Program-made: the position numbers and the translations under genes
Shown: piece after piece, positions 2,862-17,285 of the stretch
Numbering within the stretch: the stretch's first letter is position 1
Layout of the letters: each line of letters begins with the position of its first letter
Origin: a virus
DNA: 24,391 nucleotides
Direction: 5' to 3' (one strand)
Virus record (IMG/VR): IMGVR_UViG_3300018421_000199
Span: 1-24,391 of that record
Notes under the pieces: generated by a model
What the model saw: the letters and a program-made list of their open reading frames with translations, nothing else
Database searches by the model: none
What the model was told of the DNA's origin: nothing

Positions 2862-3410
2862 TCAAGTTCCAGGGAAGTATCCGTCATCAGCATCATTATC
2901 AGTTGTAGTAAGAATTCCACCAGCAACTAATACTTCGTGCTTAACTCTCAGCTCTCCATGCATGTCGATGTAAGTGGTAACACCTACCCATCCACTATGT
3001 CCTACAGCATACTCAGTAGTTGATGCTGCACCAACTTCAATTGCATCAACACCATACACAGCAGTTGTTACAGGACTTGTAGAGTAACCAACTGTCTTCT
3101 CTTCAGGTGCTCTGTAAGTGCTGTCAAGAATTGTGTAACTTGGTTCCTGTGAAATGTAGTATGCAGTGCCTGCAGGAATTACAGTAGTAGTAAATCCAGC
3201 AGTAGAAGCAAGAGTTAATGCAGTACTTCCTACGCCAACGATTGCTGCATAACCATAAGTCGCACCAGCACCTACGGTAATAACATCACCTTCACCAACC
3301 GCATCAGTGAAAGTAACTACTCCAACAGGACCATAAGCAGTCTTAGTCGCAAAATCAACTTCAATTGTACCAGCATCATATACTAAATCGGTATTTCCCC
3401 AGAGTGCCAT
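2862..3410 (-). CDS. Beta-rich virion-type structural protein (182 aa)
   Basis: The protein begins MALWGNTDLVYDAGTIEVDF and is rich in G, T, V and A with alternating hydrophobic residues, which predicts an almost all-beta fold. The MALWGNTD-type opening is, to my knowledge, shared by proteins annotated as structural in cyanophage genomes. It is preceded by a clear TATAAATA late promoter (3452-3445) and an intrinsic terminator. Late control supports a virion role such as head decoration, tail or fibre; which one cannot be told from sequence. No catalytic motif is visible. The start ATG 3410 is the first possible one, about 34 bases from the late promoter. Confidence 0.85.
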   Translation of the reverse strand: MALWGNTDLVYDAGTIEVDFATKTAYGPVGVVTFTDAVGEGDVITVGAGATYGYAAIVGVGSTALTLASTAGFTTTVIPAGTAYYISQEPSYTILDSTYRAPEEKTVGYSTSPVTTAVYGVDAIEVGAASTTEYAVGHSGWVGVTTYIDMHGELRVKHEVLVAGGILTTTDNDADDGYFPGT

Positions 3411-3444
3411 TCTCTTTACCTTTTTGAAAAGTTTTACTAAAAAA

Positions 3445-3452
3445 TATTTATA
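3445..3452 (-). promoter_or_regulatory. T4-type late promoter TATAAATA
   Basis: The minus strand reads TATAAATA, the T4 late-promoter box recognised by the gp55/gp33/gp45-modified RNA polymerase. It is 34 bases upstream of the 182-aa structural gene. Its first T is the last U of the terminator at 3452-3473. Confidence 0.85.
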
Positions 3453-3473
3453 AAAAAGGAGAGTTTCCTCTCC
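3452..3473 (-). terminator. Intrinsic terminator after the 62-aa gene
   Basis: On the minus strand, the 6-bp stem GGAGAG/CTCTCC with a GAAA tetraloop is followed directly by TTTTTT. It lies 28 bases after the stop at 3501 and merges into the late promoter TATAAATA. Confidence 0.88.
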
Positions 3474-3500
3474 CCTTTGATTGTATTTTATTTATGCGAT

Positions 3501-3689
3501 TTATTTTGCTGCTTCACCTGCTTCTTGAAAAAGCAGTGACTCAATTACATCTACAGCACCATCATCGAGTTTGTTGTCAGTGGAAGCAGCAAGACTACGA
3601 AGAATTGAAACCAAATAACGACGGACTTCTTCTTTCTCAAGAAGATTTCCAATCGTTTTCTTTGCTAGAGGGAGGAATAATGCCCACAT
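3501..3689 (-). CDS. Small hypothetical protein (62 aa)
   Basis: The protein starts MWALFLPLAKKTIGNLLEKE and is predicted to be mainly helical, with an amphipathic rather than strongly membrane-spanning N-terminus and a central helix rich in leucine and aspartate. I do not recognise the family. It stands alone between a TATATATA late-like box (3719-3712) upstream and an intrinsic terminator downstream, which marks it as its own small late unit. A holin-like or small virion role is conceivable, but the hydrophobic stretch is too short to claim one. Confidence 0.7.
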   Translation of the reverse strand: MWALFLPLAKKTIGNLLEKEEVRRYLVSILRSLAASTDNKLDDGAVDVIESLLFQEAGEAAK

Positions 3690-3711
3690 AATTTTTTACC
3701 AAAGTCTACAT

Positions 3712-3719
3712 TATATATA
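3712..3719 (-). promoter_or_regulatory. Possible late promoter, TATATATA variant
   Basis: The minus strand reads TATATATA, one mismatch from TATAAATA, 23 bases upstream of the 62-aa gene. Position fits a late promoter but the sequence is not exact. Confidence 0.4.
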
Positions 3720-3723
3720 GCAA

Positions 3724-5451
3724 TCAACCTTCAGTTTTTTGACCCTGCTGTGAAGTTTGCTTCTGAACTTTCCTTTGACGGATTGATGCAAGTTTCTTAT
3801 CAATCTGTGCAGACTTTCTCTGAAGTTGAACTTCTTGAGGACTCATCTGTACTTCACCCTGCATAGATTCTTTGACTTCAGGGAGTTTCTTATGCTTTGT
3901 TGATGCAAAATCCTTTGCATCTTTCTTGCTCATGCCCGCAGCTGCTTTGGCGACCTCAGCAGATGCAGGCGCTTCACCCTTTTTTGCGGCATAAACCATC
4001 CCCATAAATCTCTGTTGTTTTTTGGAGACTGCTTTCTCATCAATCTGCTCAACTTCTTCACTCATACGATCGACAACTTTCTGTGCCTGTCTTTTCACAA
4101 ATCTCTTTAAAGAAGTCTTTGCCCTATTTTTTACATCACTTCCTTTTTGAGAAAGTTCTCTTGCTTTATTGTAAGCAGCGACTTGTGCTTTAGCAGATGC
4201 CATACCATACTTTTCTTTTGCCTTTGTTTTTGCAGCAGAAAGTTTTTCACCAACCTTTCTCTTAATGTATCTCATACGACCTTGAAGTTTGCTTTGCTTC
4301 TTAGGTTCAAGTCCCCTACTATCGTGACCGTAAGTTACAGTTGCTTCATCAAGTAAAACAACTTCAAATGCTTCTTCAATCTCATCTTCGGTATAACCTT
4401 CTTCAAGGAACTCATCATAGATGGTATTAATAATAACATCCAACTCATCAATCTCTACTTCTTCAAGGAGAGTTCCACCAATACCTTCTACTGCTTCACC
4501 CAACTTTGGGTTAATAGAGATTTTATTTTTCTGGTTTTTAGGCATCTCTTTGATTTGCTTCTCACCATCTTCATCAGCAACTTCAATCAAATCCTGTCTC
4601 CAGTTTGAGAAAGATTCCTTTGTCACTTTCTTAGGTCCAGTGAATACCTTTTTCTTGCCATCAGGAGTTGGGACAAACTCACCATACTCACCCTTATGCT
4701 TATCATTATGCTCTACATCACCATCAACATCAGTATCAATTCTCTTTGATGCCTTCTTAGCAAGTTTTCCAATGTTTCCAGAAGGAACTTCTACTTCACC
4801 ATGGACATTTTTTGCTTCCATGTAGGGAGCAAGTTTTTTCTCAGTCTTTCTGAATTCAGCAGGTGATTCGTATCCAGTCTTCTTAGCATCGGGATTGATA
4901 GAAGAACCTCTACCAAGAGACTTTCTCTTGGATGATTGCTTTCTTACATCAATCTTTTCATCAACCATCTCTCCTTCTGGTTCATAAGAATTATAAACAC
5001 CAGTCTTCATTCCCTTATAGTGCTTCATAAGATAAGCAAGTTCTGCTTTCTTATCTCTTATACTCTTAATATTCTTAGCACGTTCTTTTACTTTAGATTT
5101 ATCAGCAAGTTTAGTTATTCTAAGTTCATCAATCTGCTCAACTTCTTCATCCTCACCTTTTTTCTTGGAGATTGCCTTACCAATCGCCTTTCTCTTCTTA
5201 TGAAGATACTTATCTGACTTATCTACATCACCATCATTATCGATGTCTGCATCTTCCTGACCTACTGGGTCAAGTTTTTTTCCTTCCTTCATCCAACGAG
5301 GAACAGTGTCGTCCTTCACTTTCTTCATGTCTGCAATCGCTTTCTCATTATTCTTTTGACGCTTTTTCATATCAGTCTCAAGATATGAATCGTCTTTTTT
5401 CTCAGCAATCTGTTCTAGATAGATTTTTGAAATATCGTTAAGATGAGTCAT
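3724..5451 (-). CDS. Large charged virion-type protein with two EF-hand-like loops and a DUF3008-like segment (575 aa)
   Basis: This 575-aa protein alternates basic segments with short acidic ones. Two loops have the same calcium-binding pattern: D69-x-D71-x-D73-G-D75-x-D77-xx-D80 and D239-x-D241-x-D243-G-D245-x-E247-xx-D250. Residues 333-368 form an acidic helical region like that near residue 268 of the 364-aa protein at 7880-8974. Residues 476-523 (KKQQRFMGMVYAAKKGE, then MSKKDAKDFASTKHKKLP) resemble small DUF3008 proteins. The motif EEVEQIDE occurs twice, at basic-segment boundaries. A late TATAAATA box lies 33 bases upstream inside the previous gene. Known relatives in cyanophages are annotated as structural or prohead proteins; an internal head or scaffold role is inferred. 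Confidence 0.85.
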   Translation of the reverse strand: MTHLNDISKIYLEQIAEKKDDSYLETDMKKRQKNNEKAIADMKKVKDDTVPRWMKEGKKLDPVGQEDADIDNDGDVDKSDKYLHKKRKAIGKAISKKKGEDEEVEQIDELRITKLADKSKVKERAKNIKSIRDKKAELAYLMKHYKGMKTGVYNSYEPEGEMVDEKIDVRKQSSKRKSLGRGSSINPDAKKTGYESPAEFRKTEKKLAPYMEAKNVHGEVEVPSGNIGKLAKKASKRIDTDVDGDVEHNDKHKGEYGEFVPTPDGKKKVFTGPKKVTKESFSNWRQDLIEVADEDGEKQIKEMPKNQKNKISINPKLGEAVEGIGGTLLEEVEIDELDVIINTIYDEFLEEGYTEDEIEEAFEVVLLDEATVTYGHDSRGLEPKKQSKLQGRMRYIKRKVGEKLSAAKTKAKEKYGMASAKAQVAAYNKARELSQKGSDVKNRAKTSLKRFVKRQAQKVVDRMSEEVEQIDEKAVSKKQQRFMGMVYAAKKGEAPASAEVAKAAAGMSKKDAKDFASTKHKKLPEVKESMQGEVQMSPQEVQLQRKSAQIDKKLASIRQRKVQKQTSQQGQKTEG

Positions 5452-5463
5452 TAGTATGAAGTA

Positions 5464-6608
5464 TTACTTTTTAGCCTTATACTTATTTATAAAATTGCGG
5501 ATGCTCTTAACATCTGCCATTCTCATTGTGTATTGAGTAAGTGCTGGTGTTCCAACTTCTCTTTGGTCTGCAGGGACACCAGATACATCAGTAAATGCTT
5601 TCTTCTCCACCACATCAGTAATCCAAGACTTGAACATTAGATTCTCTTCAGTAGCACAGATAAGATAGTTAGTTCCACGACGAATAATCTTACCTCTCAA
5701 TCCAGTGTTTGCGTTCTCTACGATTGTTCCCTTTCTAAAGATGTCTCCACCAACATAATGTTCTCTTAGATTCTTATAGTTAGATCTTGGAGACACTTTC
5801 CACATCTCGCTTTTTGTCTCTACGCCAATACCACTCTTGACTTTCTTGAATAACTTTTCAGAATCTTTGAAGTTCTTTGGAAGACCTGCCTTAAATCCAT
5901 CAAGATTATCTTGAGCAGCAAACTCTCTCATCTTCGATGATGTCTCACTATCATTATCTCTTTCACCACCAGCAACTACAGTAATGTCGTCAAAGTTGTA
6001 AAGTTCTCCATTGTGTTTCTGGGCAAGACCTCTGAACTCACCAAGTCTATCAGCACCAACAACAATAGTTACTTCTGAGTATCCCTCATTCTCCATCTTT
6101 TGGAGAACATCAAAAATAGTAATTGCCTCTTGGTCATTTACGATGTTATCCTTAAATGAAGGGAACATCTTTTTCATAAACTCAATTTTGATATCAGGTT
6201 TCAGAGGATTCATGTCAGAATCTTGTCCTCTAGAAGGATAAATCTTCAGGTCAGAACCACCAGCAATTCCTTTTGCAGCAGTGAATAATTGCTGATGCTT
6301 CTTGGTTGGTGGGTTGAACTTACCAAATACCAAAGTTACTTTGTTACCACCTTCACCATCTTCTGGTGCTGGTTCTTGTTGAGGTTTATCTGGTTCTTTT
6401 GGTTTCTTCTGCTGATCTGGAGGAACATCTCTTCCAGGTCTTTGTCCTTGATTATAAAACTTTAGATCACCACCTTCGGTTTTGCAACAAACTCTCCAGA
6501 CGCATTATACCATCCGCCATGACCGTCTCCCTTGAGTCCCATTTTCTTTGCTCTTTGGGACGCAAGTGACTCTTGTGCTTCAGTTATAAAACGCGAAAAG
6601 TTTTTCAT
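5464..6608 (-). pseudogene. Cytidylyltransferase-like nucleotidyltransferase with an apparent -1 frameshift near base 6480
   Basis: ATG 6608 opens MKNFSRFITEAQESL, then GLKGDGHGGWYNASGEFVAK, but this frame stops at 6462 after 48 codons. The frame one base back continues without stops from 6480 to 5464: TEGGDLKFYNQGQRPG, a proline/glutamine linker, then the catalytic domain. That domain has the signature GKFNPPTKKH (HxGH with Thr in place of the first His) near 6320 and an SSKMRE motif matching the family's second nucleotide-binding motif. The downstream frame has no ATG ahead of the catalytic motif. Joined, the product is about 381 aa. One missing A in a run of four explains the break. This may be a sequence error, a real mutation or recoding. 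A late-type AATAAATA box precedes it. Substrate unknown. Confidence 0.85.
5484..5491 (-). promoter_or_regulatory. T4-type late promoter TATAAATA inside the end of the nucleotidyltransferase gene
   Basis: The minus strand reads TATAAATA across codons for Ile-Asn near the C-terminus, 33 bases before ATG 5451 of the 575-aa gene. Spacing matches the other late promoters in the window. Confidence 0.8.
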
Positions 6609-6630
6609 TCTTTTAAACTTATATATACTA

Positions 6631-6638
6631 TATTTATT
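6631..6638 (-). promoter_or_regulatory. Possible late promoter AATAAATA
   Basis: The minus strand reads AATAAATA, fitting the NATAAATA form described for cyanophage late promoters. It is 23 bases upstream of ATG 6608 and just after the stop of the 146-aa gene. Confidence 0.5.
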
Positions 6639-6642
6639 GCTA

Positions 6643-7083
6643 TTAAGATCTCTTGATTTTTGCGTAGTTAATATTTCTCATTGACATAATCTCATCATTT
6701 TCAACTACATGAAGACGACCAGCAACTTCTTGCCAAGTATATCTTCTTGGTTCATTCCAATGGAAATTAATTCCTTGAAATCCCCAATTAAAAATGGAAG
6801 TCACAGCAACTAATGGATGCTGATCATAATCAATATCTGGGGTCTTGGGATTATAGATGAAAGTATAATAATTTCCCTCTTCAGGAACTAATTCAGTTTT
6901 ATCAAAGACATCAATTATTTCAACCATAATATCTTCTGGGTCAGAAAGATTTTCAATTCTCTCATTAAGAATATCAAGTCTACTTTTAGATTCTGCTTTC
7001 TTTCTTCTCTGCTCTTCTAATTTTCTCCTTTGAGATGTTAAAAGAGATGGTGCTTTTTTAGCCTTACTTAGTTTTCTAGGCAT
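6643..7083 (-). CDS. Conserved hypothetical protein, late cluster (146 aa)
   Basis: The N-terminal 50 residues are very basic and helical (LTSQRRKLEEQRRKKAESK). The rest is a compact domain rich in aromatic residues, with stretches such as NYYTFIYNPKTPDIDYDQHP and WGFQGINFHWNEPRRYTW. I recall similar aromatic domains in T4-like phage hypothetical proteins but cannot assign a function. The start overlaps the stop of the 248-aa gene as TAATG, so the two are probably translated together. Being behind a late promoter and between structural-type genes, it may be a packaged DNA-binding protein; this is inference. Confidence 0.78.
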   Translation of the reverse strand: MPRKLSKAKKAPSLLTSQRRKLEEQRRKKAESKSRLDILNERIENLSDPEDIMVEIIDVFDKTELVPEEGNYYTFIYNPKTPDIDYDQHPLVAVTSIFNWGFQGINFHWNEPRRYTWQEVAGRLHVVENDEIMSMRNINYAKIKRS

Positions 7084-7829
7084 TATCGTCTAAGTGGAGT
7101 TTCTATAAAAATTGCATTACTAATTTCTTTTTTTGGCCTAGCTTCTACTCTAATTCCAGGAAATCTATTAACATTTCTTCTTTCAGATCTTCCCCTAACA
7201 TGAAAGTATGGATAAATGTCTCTAGGAATCTCTCTCACATTTTCAATTAAATTACTACAATTCACAATAAGTTCTCCAGAAGAGTTCGGATTAATTTGAT
7301 TGTTAAAATTTTTTATTATAATTGAACCATTGTCCAAAATATCATCACCAAAACATACCTTTTTAGCATCAGATGGTCCGCATTTATATGCTAGTCCTAT
7401 TTTCTTTTTTGTTCTAGGTTCAACTATATCATAAGAATACTTTGTTCGTTTACCAGAAACTGGTATATGATCAATTTCAAAATTTCTATTGCCACTTTTG
7501 CCTTCAATTTGATCTATTGCAAAATCAAAAATTTTTTCAGCAACCACATCTCCAATTAATGTATCTGCCGATTCCCATTCTCCAAATTTATTTTTTTTCA
7601 AAGAAACTTTGTATTCTTTATTATCAGAATAATAGACAATAAAGTCAGATTTTTGTCCTCTTTTGTCTTCTCCACCAATAAACTTTACTTTATATACATC
7701 GTTCAAAACTATATTTTTAGTAGTAGTTTTAAATACTATAGTATTGATCTGTTGTTTTTTTCTATTAAGAATGTTATAAAAGTTTCTTTCGTTACTATCT
7801 TTTATATTTGTTCCTAAAACTTCGATCAT
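7083..7829 (-). CDS. PD-(D/E)XK-like putative nuclease, late expressed (248 aa)
   Basis: The strongest functional hint is residues 55-78, where SDFIVYYSDNKEYKVSLK has the shape of a PD-(D/E)XK nuclease core: D62 at the start of a strand, then S76-L-K78 replacing E-x-K after a beta turn. The next segment, KFGEWESADTLIGD, resembles what follows the core in restriction-like families I recall. The C-terminal half is unrelated to anything I know. The gene begins only 11 bases from a perfect TATAAATA box, so its mRNA would have almost no leader. A nuclease made late could act in packaging or host DNA exclusion, but activity is unproven, and a degenerate or structural role remains possible. Confidence 0.72.
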   Translation of the reverse strand: MIEVLGTNIKDSNERNFYNILNRKKQQINTIVFKTTTKNIVLNDVYKVKFIGGEDKRGQKSDFIVYYSDNKEYKVSLKKNKFGEWESADTLIGDVVAEKIFDFAIDQIEGKSGNRNFEIDHIPVSGKRTKYSYDIVEPRTKKKIGLAYKCGPSDAKKVCFGDDILDNGSIIIKNFNNQINPNSSGELIVNCSNLIENVREIPRDIYPYFHVRGRSERRNVNRFPGIRVEARPKKEISNAIFIETPLRR

Positions 7830-7839
7830 TTTTTTTAAC

Positions 7840-7847
7840 TATTTATA
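7840..7847 (-). promoter_or_regulatory. T4-type late promoter TATAAATA
   Basis: The minus strand reads TATAAATA with its last base 11 positions before the A of ATG 7829. Its first T is the last U of the terminator at 7847-7872. Confidence 0.83.
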
Positions 7848-7872
7848 AAAAAACCTCCCATTTCTGGGAGGT
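7847..7872 (-). terminator. Intrinsic terminator after the 364-aa gene
   Basis: On the minus strand, a perfect 8-bp stem ACCTCCCA/TGGGAGGT with a GAAA tetraloop runs directly into seven T residues. It lies 7 bases after the stop at 7880. Confidence 0.93.
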
Positions 7873-7879
7873 CTCTAAA

Positions 7880-8974
7880 TCAAACTCCACCTCTTGTCTT
7901 AAACTTATCAGTCCTTCCACCTTTACCATAAGTAGAAACTGAAACCTCAGGTCTTCTCTTATCTACAGTGTATCCAGGATCTTTTTTCACTGGTTCCATA
8001 GACCTTCCTGCGTATTCAATTTTTTTTTCAGGATTCTTTTTGAACATTCCCAAGATTTCATCAATCTGCTCTTCAGTAATCGCATTCGCCATAATCCAGT
8101 TTGCTTCCTGAATGTCTTGTGCGATTTCCTCATCAATCAGAAACTCAAGGATAACATCAAAAGCATCGAACTCTTCTGAACGGAGTGCCTTACGACGACG
8201 CTTCTCTGCTTGTTTAGGACTTACAGTAGCACCTTTACCACGATTGGCATCGGGATCCCAGTTTCTGGGTGGGGTATATTCTATGTTACCCTTCTTAAAC
8301 ATCTTAATTCTATCGCGAATCCCCTGATCGCGTTTACCCGTTTCATCAAGATACTCTTCCTTACGAAGTTTCTCTTTTACCTTTCTCTTTACTTCACCAG
8401 CAGCATACTGAACTGCTGCCTTTGGGTTCTTTTTGATGTCGTCTCTTACTGCTTTGTTGAGAGCAGCTCTCTTTTCTGGTTTTCTCAACCAACCAGGATT
8501 GTTATGGATTCCCTGCTTGTAAGCATACTTATTTACATGCTTCTTAACTTTCTCACCAACTTTATCTCTGAGACCTTCTTCTACGTTCTCGACTTCTTCC
8601 ATTCTAGCACCAGACTTATGGCGGGTTGTGCCTGCAGAATCAACATAAGTTTCTCTCTCCCTTCTAGGAGTTACATAACCAACACCAGGGACTACGCCAG
8701 TCTTACCAGCATCTCTAGCAGCATTTCTTGCTGCTGCTCTTTGTGCTGCTCTCTTACGGTTGCGATCGTAAGAGCTCATTGCCTCATCAACTTTATCTTC
8801 TTCCTTATACTGAGGATGATCATCAACCTTCATACCACGCTTCTTCTCAAGACGTGCCTTACGCTCAGCAGTGCCTTTCTCGGGATCTAAATCACGAACA
8901 CCCTCTTCTACTTCTTGAGGAGCACTGATTTGCTGGTATGCTTCCATCAAACTTCTAAGTCCTTTAGAATCCAT
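7880..8974 (-). CDS. Charged virion-type protein (364 aa), same style as the 575-aa protein
   Basis: The protein mixes basic, disordered segments (YDRNRKRAAQRAAARNAARD near residues 69-88) with an acidic helical domain at residues 268-306 (FDAFDVILEFLIDEE, then ITEEQIDEI). That acidic domain has a counterpart in the 575-aa protein. Short acidic stops ending in Val/Ile/Leu-x-Glu recur (VEEG 22-25, VDEA 62-65, VEEG 131-134, IDEI 304-307). It sits alone between a late promoter and a terminator. Known cyanophage relatives are annotated structural or prohead-core proteins. An internal head protein processed by the prohead protease is a reasonable inference, not shown by sequence alone. Confidence 0.83.
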   Translation of the reverse strand: MDSKGLRSLMEAYQQISAPQEVEEGVRDLDPEKGTAERKARLEKKRGMKVDDHPQYKEEDKVDEAMSSYDRNRKRAAQRAAARNAARDAGKTGVVPGVGYVTPRRERETYVDSAGTTRHKSGARMEEVENVEEGLRDKVGEKVKKHVNKYAYKQGIHNNPGWLRKPEKRAALNKAVRDDIKKNPKAAVQYAAGEVKRKVKEKLRKEEYLDETGKRDQGIRDRIKMFKKGNIEYTPPRNWDPDANRGKGATVSPKQAEKRRRKALRSEEFDAFDVILEFLIDEEIAQDIQEANWIMANAITEEQIDEILGMFKKNPEKKIEYAGRSMEPVKKDPGYTVDKRRPEVSVSTYGKGGRTDKFKTRGGV

Positions 8975-9003
8975 CTTTGATAATCTTTAACTATTATAAA
9001 AAT

Positions 9004-9011
9004 TATTTATA
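9004..9011 (-). promoter_or_regulatory. T4-type late promoter TATAAATA
   Basis: The minus strand reads TATAAATA 30 bases upstream of ATG 8974. It shares a T with the terminator U-tract at 9011-9017. It opens the late structural block. Confidence 0.87.
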
Positions 9012-9031
9012 AAAAAACTCCCGAAGGAGTT
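9011..9031 (-). terminator. Intrinsic terminator ending the gp43-to-63-aa early unit
   Basis: On the minus strand, the 6-bp stem AACTCC/GGAGTT closed by a stable TTCG tetraloop is followed by a run of T. It begins 5 bases after the stop at 9037 and merges with TATAAATA. Confidence 0.9.
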
Positions 9032-9036
9032 AAATA

Positions 9037-9228
9037 TCAAGCACCAATAACGGCACCAATACTATCATCAAGTTTTTGAATGGTTGAACGAATATCAACA
9101 ATACGAGGAGGAATACTTACCTCATCATAGGTGTATCCTTTTTGAGCATCAAACAGGACTTGACGAACTGCAGCTGCTGCACGAGCATCAAGTTTAATTG
9201 TTACTTGTTTTTCTTTAGTCATTTTCAT
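9037..9228 (-). CDS. Small conserved hypothetical protein (63 aa)
   Basis: The 63-aa protein starts MKMTKEKQVTIKLDARAAAA and continues with AVRQVLFDAQKGYTYDEVSI, a strand-helix pattern seen in small cyanophage hypothetical proteins; no function is known to me. Its start overlaps the previous gene by 14 bases (9215-9228). A second in-frame ATG (9222) is also possible. It is the last gene before the terminator at 9031-9011, so it closes the helicase-mazG unit. Confidence 0.75.
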   Translation of the reverse strand: MKMTKEKQVTIKLDARAAAAVRQVLFDAQKGYTYDEVSIPPRIVDIRSTIQKLDDSIGAVIGA

Positions 9229-17180: not shown

Positions 17181-17188
17181 TATTTATA
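17181..17188 (-). promoter_or_regulatory. T4-type late promoter TATAAATA for hsp20
   Basis: The minus strand reads TATAAATA, ten bases after a terminator U-tract and about 58 bases before ATG 17123. Confidence 0.83.
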
Positions 17189-17197
17189 GCACAATAC

Positions 17198-17231
17198 AAA
17201 AAAAGAGGCAAGGTAAAAACCGAACCTCTTT
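17198..17231 (-). terminator. Intrinsic terminator after regA
   Basis: On the minus strand, AAAGAGG pairs with CCTCTTT (7 bp), with an inner GGT/ACC pairing, then a run of seven T. It ends the clamp-loader/regA unit. Confidence 0.88.
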
Positions 17232-17285
17232 ATGGGTTGTTCCGATTGTAGAGTGTGCCGCACGAAAAGCACGGAACTATTTATG
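17202..17285 (-). ncRNA. Candidate small structured RNA between regA and hsp20
   Basis: On the minus strand, a CATAAATA box (17285-17278, overlapping the regA stop) is followed by GTTCCG paired with CGGAAC 27 bases later, with inner GTGC/GCAC pairing, and then by the terminator at 17231-17198. If the box is active, it would produce an RNA of about 75 bases with two hairpins. It could equally be a structured 3' end of the regA mRNA. It is not a tRNA: no T-loop or anticodon arm. Confidence 0.4.

Follow-up and report, generated by a model that had tools for sequence, protein, structure and literature searches.

Terminator hairpins sharing a base with T4-type late promoters in T4-like cyanophages

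The question raised by this locus is why, at three gene junctions, what resembles a transcription terminator should run straight into a late promoter. Is this an accident of base composition, a consequence of crowding, or an arrangement with a function of its own? The window (the whole stretch of DNA that was analysed, 24,391 nucleotides) is a 24-kb fragment of a T4-like cyanophage. Such phages are abundant in marine and lake waters and, to our knowledge, lack the MotA/AsiA middle system of T4.

The three junctions in the window

The features concerned are as follows.

2862..3410, minus: downstream gene 1, 182 aa, related to cyanophage 'head protein' (phrog_3086, phrog_613)
3445..3452, minus: T4-type late promoter TATAAATA, junction 1, exact match; predicted +1 near 3439
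3452..3457, minus: T-run of 6, junction 1; its last T (3452) is the first T of TATAAATA
3453..3478, minus: terminator hairpin 1, core GGAGAG-GAAA-CTCTCC at 3458-3473; -14.0 kcal/mol, z -3.7
3501..3689, minus: gene upstream of junction 1, 62 aa (phrog_2738/402)
6643-7083, minus: DNA-end-protector-like gene, 146 aa, after downstream gene 2 (phrog_429)
7083..7829, minus: downstream gene 2, 248 aa (phrog_12709)
7840..7847, minus: late promoter TATAAATA, junction 2; predicted +1 near 7834, leader only about 5 nt
7847..7853, minus: T-run of 7, junction 2; last T common to the promoter
7849..7876, minus: terminator hairpin 2, core CCTCCCA-GAAA-TGGGAGG at 7854-7871; -18.1 kcal/mol, z -5.4
7880..8974, minus: gene between junctions 3 and 2, 364 aa (phrog_9737)
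9004..9011, minus: late promoter TATAAATA, junction 3; predicted +1 near 8998
9011..9017, minus: T-run of 7, junction 3; last T common to the promoter
9016..9031, minus: terminator hairpin 3, AACTCC-TTCG-GGAGTT; -7.2 kcal/mol, z -3.2
9037..9228, minus: gene upstream of junction 3, 63 aa (phrog_24723)
17181..17188, minus: TATAAATA before hsp20, after a 9-nt gap (17197-17189) from the T-run at 17204-17198
17198..17231, minus: hairpin and T-run of the looser hsp20 version; -15.1 kcal/mol, z -4.3, folded within 17189-17240

At each junction the minus strand passes from hairpin to T-tract to promoter with no gap, just as the first-pass annotation had described: the T-runs at 3457-3452, 7853-7847 and 9017-9011 adjoin copies of TATAAATA at 3452-3445, 7847-7840 and 9011-9004. 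Its description of three different stems closed by the loops GAAA, GAAA and TTCG also agrees with the sequence, the stem of hairpin 2 reaching 12 bp on folding. The looser version that it placed before hsp20 is present too, with a gap of 9 bases rather than 10 and with an interrupted stem, in which an outer AAAGAGG/CCTCTTT pairing encloses an inner hairpin. As expected of intrinsic terminators, the hairpins at the three junctions are stable, G+C-rich and short-looped (z -3.2 to -5.4), and each is followed directly by its T-run (6, 7 and 7), 3' of a gene and after its stop codon; as expected of a T4-type late promoter, TATAAATA lies at -13 to -6 shortly before a gene on the same strand. The late sigma factor gp55 and the co-activator gp33 are encoded in relatives, the 24-kb fragment itself having been checked by gene list only. 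The S-PM2 counterpart of downstream gene 1 is annotated as a head protein, S-PM2 having its junctions at 108089 and 136653. A replication block with gp41-, uvsX- and gp43-like genes sits upstream of the 63-aa gene. No sigma-70-type promoter on the minus strand at the three junctions is among the matches listed, Rfam returned no family match anywhere in the window, and Pfam gave nothing useful on the flanking genes apart from HSP20.

The simplest explanation would be chance co-occurrence of common A+T-rich words in a genome that is 62% A+T. However, TATAAATA occurs six times in the window, always on the gene strand, against 1.2 copies expected, TTTTTATAAATA is confined to the three junctions, and the fused element, present three times, did not appear in any of 1,500 dinucleotide-shuffled windows.

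Enrichment, spacing and stem turnover in relatives

Among 237 terminators (160 non-redundant cyanophage loci) ATAAATA follows at a gap of 0 in 35, with 0-2 cases at any other gap, and 14 control words gave two cases in total. Approached from the promoter side, a T-run of at least 5 precedes 91 of 961 ATAAATA sites, 57 of those 91 with a hairpin, and hairpin and T-run of this length stand before the 14 control words in only two cases altogether. An independent scan of IMG/VR found a hairpin at 47/123 (38%) T7-ATAAATA sites against 2/79 (3%) T7-AATAATA sites (p=3e-10). Counted by family, gap 0 occurs in 9 downstream gene families and other gaps in at most 3 each (p=3e-8). Relatives are thus clearly enriched in the joined element, as the first-pass annotation had proposed to check; the observation is confirmed and lies far outside chance, and chance co-occurrence, refuted by shuffles and control-word tests alike, has a negligible probability.

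The geometry of the element is narrow as well. After a hairpin and T-run the promoter position -13 is T in 57 cases and another base in 2, against 318:643 over all sites, so that the last U is truly common to terminator and promoter, as had been claimed. Exactly 7 A/T bases separate the last G/C from ATAAATA in 30 of 46 fused elements; the A/T tails of other terminators are shorter and spread in length. In a larger set of 113 elements, consisting of 109 fused elements and four S-SRM01 cassettes, the hairpins mostly begin 0-25 nt past the upstream stop codon, and an ORF starts within 90 nt in 112, mostly 20-35 nt beyond the promoter. Head protein, portal, tail tube, Alt, endolysin and tail-fibre assembly are among the downstream families. 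Most late promoters carry no attached terminator, and insulation is therefore not needed everywhere. A double late promoter flanking the terminator, for which CATAAATA at 3489-3496 and a copy before the hsp20 unit were candidates, was rejected as not enriched, ATAAATA occurring in 9 flanks of the fused elements and control words in up to 9.

Might the zero gap reflect genome economy, two required signals being squeezed into little intergenic space and their contact having no function of its own? This reading, possible though unlikely, draws on the density of phage genomes (93-97% coding by a crude count) and on terminator-less head-gene relatives, in which the same promoter is often directly preceded by the stop codon of the upstream gene. 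However, gap 0 stands far above gaps 1-12 with no tailing off, and it accounts for 18 of 29 roomy cases, those with at least 40 nt between stop codon and hairpin, and for 28 of 45 tight cases, which is 62% in both, so that lack of space as its cause is rejected.

Conserved junctions reveal how the parts of the element change. In the head-gene family (junction 1), [T/A]ATAAATA stands 28-37 nt before the ATG in 71/71 distinct orthologous upstream regions, being kept whether the terminator is present or not. The 34 elements of this family carry 32 distinct hairpins, and the 38 of the junction 3 family carry 29; at both junctions stems have been replaced and the fusion retained. Such turnover under a constant layout supports the earlier suggestion of selection on the architecture, and on sequence comparison the arrangement is enriched, conserved and re-evolved.

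The same family bears on the improbable reading that the T-run belongs to the late promoter as an upstream element, to which hairpins attach secondarily. Runs of exactly 4 Ts precede 18 of the 961 ATAAATA sites, mostly without a hairpin and about three times as often as with control words, and some head-gene orthologs show T4-T5 without a strong hairpin; this mild enrichment suggests that the promoter itself may make use of part of the tract. Yet T-run and hairpin co-occur in the head-gene family (28/12/0/31, p=1.2e-10, the last two counts being hairpins without a T-run of at least 5 and conserved promoters with neither), the T-run is absent at most ATAAATA sites, and Aeh1 has terminator and CTAAATA with spacers.

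Relation to known devices of phages

The fused element is the late-promoter counterpart of the known PeSL (promoter-early stem-loop) cassettes (PMC4503421, PMC5931544), which PMC4503421, citing Arbiol 2010 and Comeau 2014, presents as terminator/early-promoter cassettes mediating shuffling in T4-like phages. In both, a stem-loop terminator adjoins a promoter in intergenic DNA of a T4-like phage. Unlike PeSLs, the window elements have the late TATAAATA in place of a sigma-70 early promoter, a base common to T-run and promoter, stems that are not repeated near-identical copies (orthologous junctions turn over in place) and no sign of recombination in the window. The shuffling ascribed to PeSLs, together with the four near-identical terminator/late-promoter cassettes that S-SRM01 carries before different genes, would favour regarding the fused elements as recombination seams, with T-run and TATAAATA as short homology for module exchange. 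The probability of this is slight: the three stems in the window are unrelated, the common part amounts to only 13-14 nt (T-run and promoter), and the two big families keep the downstream gene while the stems change, which is in-place turnover and not swapping.

Outside the cyanophages, T4 has a fused element before alt, at a junction that lies at 125538 in T4 and where RB49 has a 1-base gap; ahead of genes 9 and 36 T4 has versions with a 4-nt gap. Most gaps among the Straboviridae examined measure 1-12 nt, and exact fusion is therefore mainly a cyanophage trait. For Aeh1 the late motif given in PMC1524935, CTAAATA, outnumbers every other 7-mer within 16 nt of the terminators; in RB49 words containing TTGACA are commonest at this distance, that is, the scan recovers PeSL-type units. 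Nolan et al. 2006 (PMC1524935) placed T4 terminators upstream of alt, between 35/36 and after 23, conserved in T4-likes, and those before late genes have the same neighbours as the fused elements. The terminator section of that paper lists terminators and infers operons from promoter positions, and makes no mention there of contact or base sharing with a late promoter. In Kayvirus 515A1 the promoter p98 likewise comes right after the terminator t97, but it is early, a single case, and base sharing is not reported (PMC7698491). The literature on T4-likes, searched apart from the original PeSL papers, yielded no account of a late promoter that touches or overlaps a terminator; a transcriptome paper on Syn9 did not come to light either, so that an earlier mention is possible.

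Hairpin and late promoter likewise silence a late gene on early transcripts where the hairpin sequesters the ribosome-binding site (T4 e, soc, 49, I-TevI and segB; Aeh1 mobE), a known T4 device in which, for e, soc, 49 and I-TevI, the late promoter lies inside the structure (PMC3014915, PMC2988022). By this reading, early read-through RNA would cover the ribosome-binding site and late RNA would not. Four homing-endonuclease-like genes of S-SRM01 do have an outer stem of 10-16 bp around terminator and late promoter, and at junction 3 weak A/U-rich pairing reaches the start region. For the class as a whole the reading is nonetheless very improbable, though it may hold for the endonuclease subclass. 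Whereas in the T4 e/I-TevI type the promoter is inside the hairpin and translation is blocked, the window hairpins lie entirely upstream of the promoter and would stop transcription. Moreover, complementarity between upstream flank and leader over the 113 elements equals that of mismatched pairs (mean 14.4 vs 14.3), and a sequestering stem as a general function was rejected, a strong outer stem occurring only in the four S-SRM01 endonuclease cassettes and one further locus (L398).

Proposed mechanism and significance

The likely reading is that each junction combines two signals at a fixed distance, an intrinsic terminator acting on the upstream gene and a T4-type late promoter acting on the downstream one, and so shields the late gene from read-through. 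A stable hairpin is followed by an A/T tail, usually of 7 nt, whose final T doubles as the -13 T of TATAAATA. A polymerase arriving from upstream, which at junction 3 and before T4 alt would be making an early or middle transcript and elsewhere possibly a late one, would free its RNA at about the 7th-8th U, corresponding to -13/-12 of the late promoter, and a gp55-type late polymerase would start about 12 nt beyond this termination point. The downstream late gene would be left out of upstream transcripts and its promoter shielded from polymerases passing through, such late genes probably being read only from their own start sites. The zero gap is probably commonest because the A+T-rich promoter can form the distal end of the weak tract of the terminator, the two signals sharing bases.

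Insulation of late units, with read-through ending just at the point of late initiation, as proposed in the first-pass annotation, is partly supported, the joined element being enriched in relatives, but the units upstream are not only late. They include MazG, NrdB, psbA and Hsp20, also gp18-, gp19- and gp23-like genes, and in T4 alt.1, beside the ligase gene, so that the element appears to mark the border between early and late units no less than to insulate late units from one another. Several upstream neighbours are, however, late genes themselves, and a temporal barrier makes less sense there.

A more speculative and quite doubtful idea is that the fixed 7-nt spacing allows a hand-over, in which the polymerase, after release at -13/-12, would stay on the DNA, gain gp55 and re-initiate at the late promoter. 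In vitro, E. coli polymerase is retained after termination and reinitiates at nearby promoters, the more so with added sigma (PMC6978380, PMC6978322). Exact spacing is unnecessary for long-range sliding; direct capture would fit. If hand-over were true, upstream transcription would feed late initiation rather than only being excluded, and if the spacing reflects polymerase recycling, the elements would be natural substrates for studying reinitiation after termination.

For T4-like cyanophages the fused element offers a simple, searchable mark of transcription-unit boundaries. It also suggests that late genes may be silenced on early transcripts at the level of transcription, the route known from T4 being translational.

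Fused elements in the window

The window (24.4 kb, an IMG/VR virus fragment) is a piece of a T4-like cyanomyovirus genome whose closest records, S-SKS1, S-SRM01, Sf-CH5 and Bellamy, show 76-79% identity across part of its length. Nearly all of its genes lie on the minus strand, and those from 9 kb to 2.8 kb form a series of small, poorly known genes, one head-protein-like, downstream of a replication block with gp43-, uvsX- and gp41-like genes, as annotated in the matching records. The first-pass annotation had described three junctions where hairpin, T-tract and late promoter follow without a gap and have one T in common, and all three are present.

Fused terminator/late-promoter elements in the window
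3452, minus strand: junction 1, stable hairpin and 6 T, then ATAAATA
7847, minus strand: junction 2, stable hairpin and 7 T, then ATAAATA
9011, minus strand: junction 3, stable hairpin and 7 T, then ATAAATA

At each the final T of the T-run is the first letter of TATAAATA. Within the window TTTTTATAAATA is confined to these three junctions, and no fused element arose when the window was dinucleotide-shuffled 1,500 times. The looser version reported before hsp20 also exists, with a gap of 9 bases rather than 10 and an interrupted stem; the 9-12 nt gap class covers this site (17181-17204) and two in S-SKS1 (NC_020851, near 82050 and 26634). At the S-SKS1 sites the spacer holds TTATAAT directly ahead of the late box, suggesting that an early -10 overlaps the late promoter after the terminator.

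Three further features of the window concern late promoters. At 5484-5491 TATAAATA falls inside the cytidylyltransferase gene, at its 3' end and 33 nt short of the ATG of the following gene, and since most relatives retain NATAAATA at the counterpart within coding sequence (..FINKYK..), the stretch may serve as coding sequence and promoter at once. At 7829-7840 the predicted late leader is only ~5 nt (AAAAA, then ATG) and has no Shine-Dalgarno sequence, giving a predicted late mRNA that is nearly leaderless. At 3489-3496 CATAAATA, conserved in five close relatives, stands 5' of hairpin 1, and a second late start here would yield only a ~30-nt terminated RNA; over the whole set of elements, late-promoter boxes upstream of the hairpin are not enriched.

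Occurrence in cyanophages and other T4-like phages

Among 160 non-redundant loci (1.6 Mb), retrieved by protein similarity alone and related by descent, ATAAATA follows the T-run with no gap in 35 of 237 strict terminators, with hairpin thresholds of our own choice; every other gap from 1 to 40 bases accounts for 0-2 terminators, and fourteen control words of the same composition for 2 in total. With six reference cyanophages included, gap 0 occurs before 9 downstream gene families and any other gap before at most 3 (p ~3e-8), gene calls being crude outside annotated records. In the same loci and reference genomes (2.77 Mb), a T-run of at least 5 precedes 91 of 961 ATAAATA, with a hairpin in 57 of the 91, a combination almost never found before control words. 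An IMG/VR scan independent of protein similarity found a hairpin at 47 of 123 T7-ATAAATA sites as against 2 of 79 T7-AATAATA sites, so that the joined element, which the first-pass annotation had proposed to compare with chance in relatives, is enriched there. Altogether 113 distinct fused elements, preceding 29 gene families, were gathered, a collection that takes in pattern-selected loci of the IMG/VR scan. By the terminator scan exact fusion is absent from the cyanophages Syn9, Bellamy and S-CRM01. An RBS-sequestering role of the hairpin was rejected, as flank-leader pairing over the 113 elements was no better than with mismatched partners.

Genomes of other T4-like phages (T4, RB49, KVP40, Aeh1) were also compared. 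T4 contains a single fused element and two more in which 4 bases intervene; in RB49 the gap is 1 base, at the position before alt that it shares with T4; KVP40 and Aeh1 have no terminator/ATAAATA contact at gap 0. The late promoter of Aeh1 is CTAAATA (PMC1524935), and this word ranks first among the 7-mers lying up to 16 bases from Aeh1 terminators. A terminator adjoining a late promoter is therefore widespread in T4-like phages, tracking the promoter word of each phage, and exact fusion is mainly a cyanophage trait, though not one of every cyanophage. In RB49 (L169-L177) the 7-mers that most often follow terminators within 16 nt are TGTTGAC, GTTGACA and TTGACAA; these are early-promoter -35 boxes and presumably represent the known PeSL (promoter-early stem-loop) cassettes, recovered without a prior. 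PeSL and fused element alike join a stem-loop terminator to a promoter, but strict identity was rejected, as the promoter of the fused element is late and its copies are not repeated.

S-SRM01 has a near-identical terminator and late promoter (4-nt spacer) before each of four homing-endonuclease-like genes.

Cassettes in S-SRM01 (NC_070963, loci L102-L103)
48479-48536; 51290-51348; 56002-56059; 62453-62515

Each sits inside an outer stem of 10-16 bp, whose arms vary in sequence among copies while complementarity is kept and whose 3' arm lies directly before the start region of the gene; from the pairing, the terminator is predicted to lie nested within a structure that contains the late promoter and sequesters the RBS. 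A similar outer stem occurs at locus L398 near 12069 (psbA to endonuclease VII).

Shared base, spacing and stem turnover

Cyanophage late promoters read NATAAATA, with N free to be any base. Directly after a hairpin and T-run N is T in 57 cases, A in 1 and C in 1, compared with 318 T and 643 non-T over all NATAAATA (p ~1e-26, a generous value, given that orthologous junctions do not provide independent elements); the direction of the bias is clear and points to a base truly common to T-run and promoter. In 30 of 46 elements the A/T tail from the last G/C of the stem to ATAAATA measures 7 nt, and tails of other terminators in the same genomes are shorter and more varied. Shortage of space does not explain the zero gap, which occurs in 18 of 29 roomy cases and also in 28 of 45 tight ones. 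This favours a reading in which terminator and late promoter both make use of the A+T-rich stretch; direct hand-over of the terminated polymerase to the late promoter, on which PMC6978380 and PMC6978322 bear, is less likely than such joint use.

For the gene downstream of junction 1, all 71 distinct orthologous upstream regions carry the promoter, 28-37 bases before the ATG, with T at -13 in 70. T-run and hairpin are both present in 28 and both absent in 31, 12 have a T-run but no hairpin by our criteria (longer loops occur in some of these), and a hairpin never occurs in the absence of a T-run. The two largest families contain 29 different hairpins in 38 elements and 32 in 34, with at least three pair types at most stem positions, which, the hairpins having been chosen for pairing, is evidence of turnover and not an unbiased covariation test. 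The shared architecture without sequence similarity noted at the outset thus also holds at two conserved junctions in relatives, where stems turn over while the fusion stays. In relatives lacking the terminator the stop codon of the upstream gene often abuts the promoter, suggesting that the promoter persists while terminators are gained and lost precisely at its border.

Neighbouring genes and proposed working

Families downstream of fused elements include head protein, portal, tail tube, Alt, endolysin, tail-fibre assembly and homing endonucleases. The T4 element lies at an early-to-late boundary, where the alt.1/DNA ligase side ends and alt, encoding a virion protein, starts; that of S-PM2 at 108089 precedes a head-protein gene within a metabolic and replication region. 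Upstream families include MazG, NrdB, psbA, Hsp20, peroxiredoxin and alt.1 as well as late ones (tail sheath, tail tube, major head protein), so that the proposal of insulated late units is only half right. A further S-PM2 element (NC_006820, 136653; L465, 136544-136741) separates psbA from F-CphI and falls within the antisense RNA CfrI, which would span both the psbA terminator and the F-CphI late promoter.

The sequence itself shows both signals, in contact and with a base in common, their spacing and conservation, and their location after a stop codon. Intrinsic terminators release RNA ~7-8 bases past the stem, and T4 late initiation occurs ~6 bases after TATAAATA. Most likely, then, the upstream RNA would be released at -13/-12 of the late promoter, so that the upstream transcript would stop some 12 bases short of the late start, and the late gene would then be transcribed solely from its own promoter.
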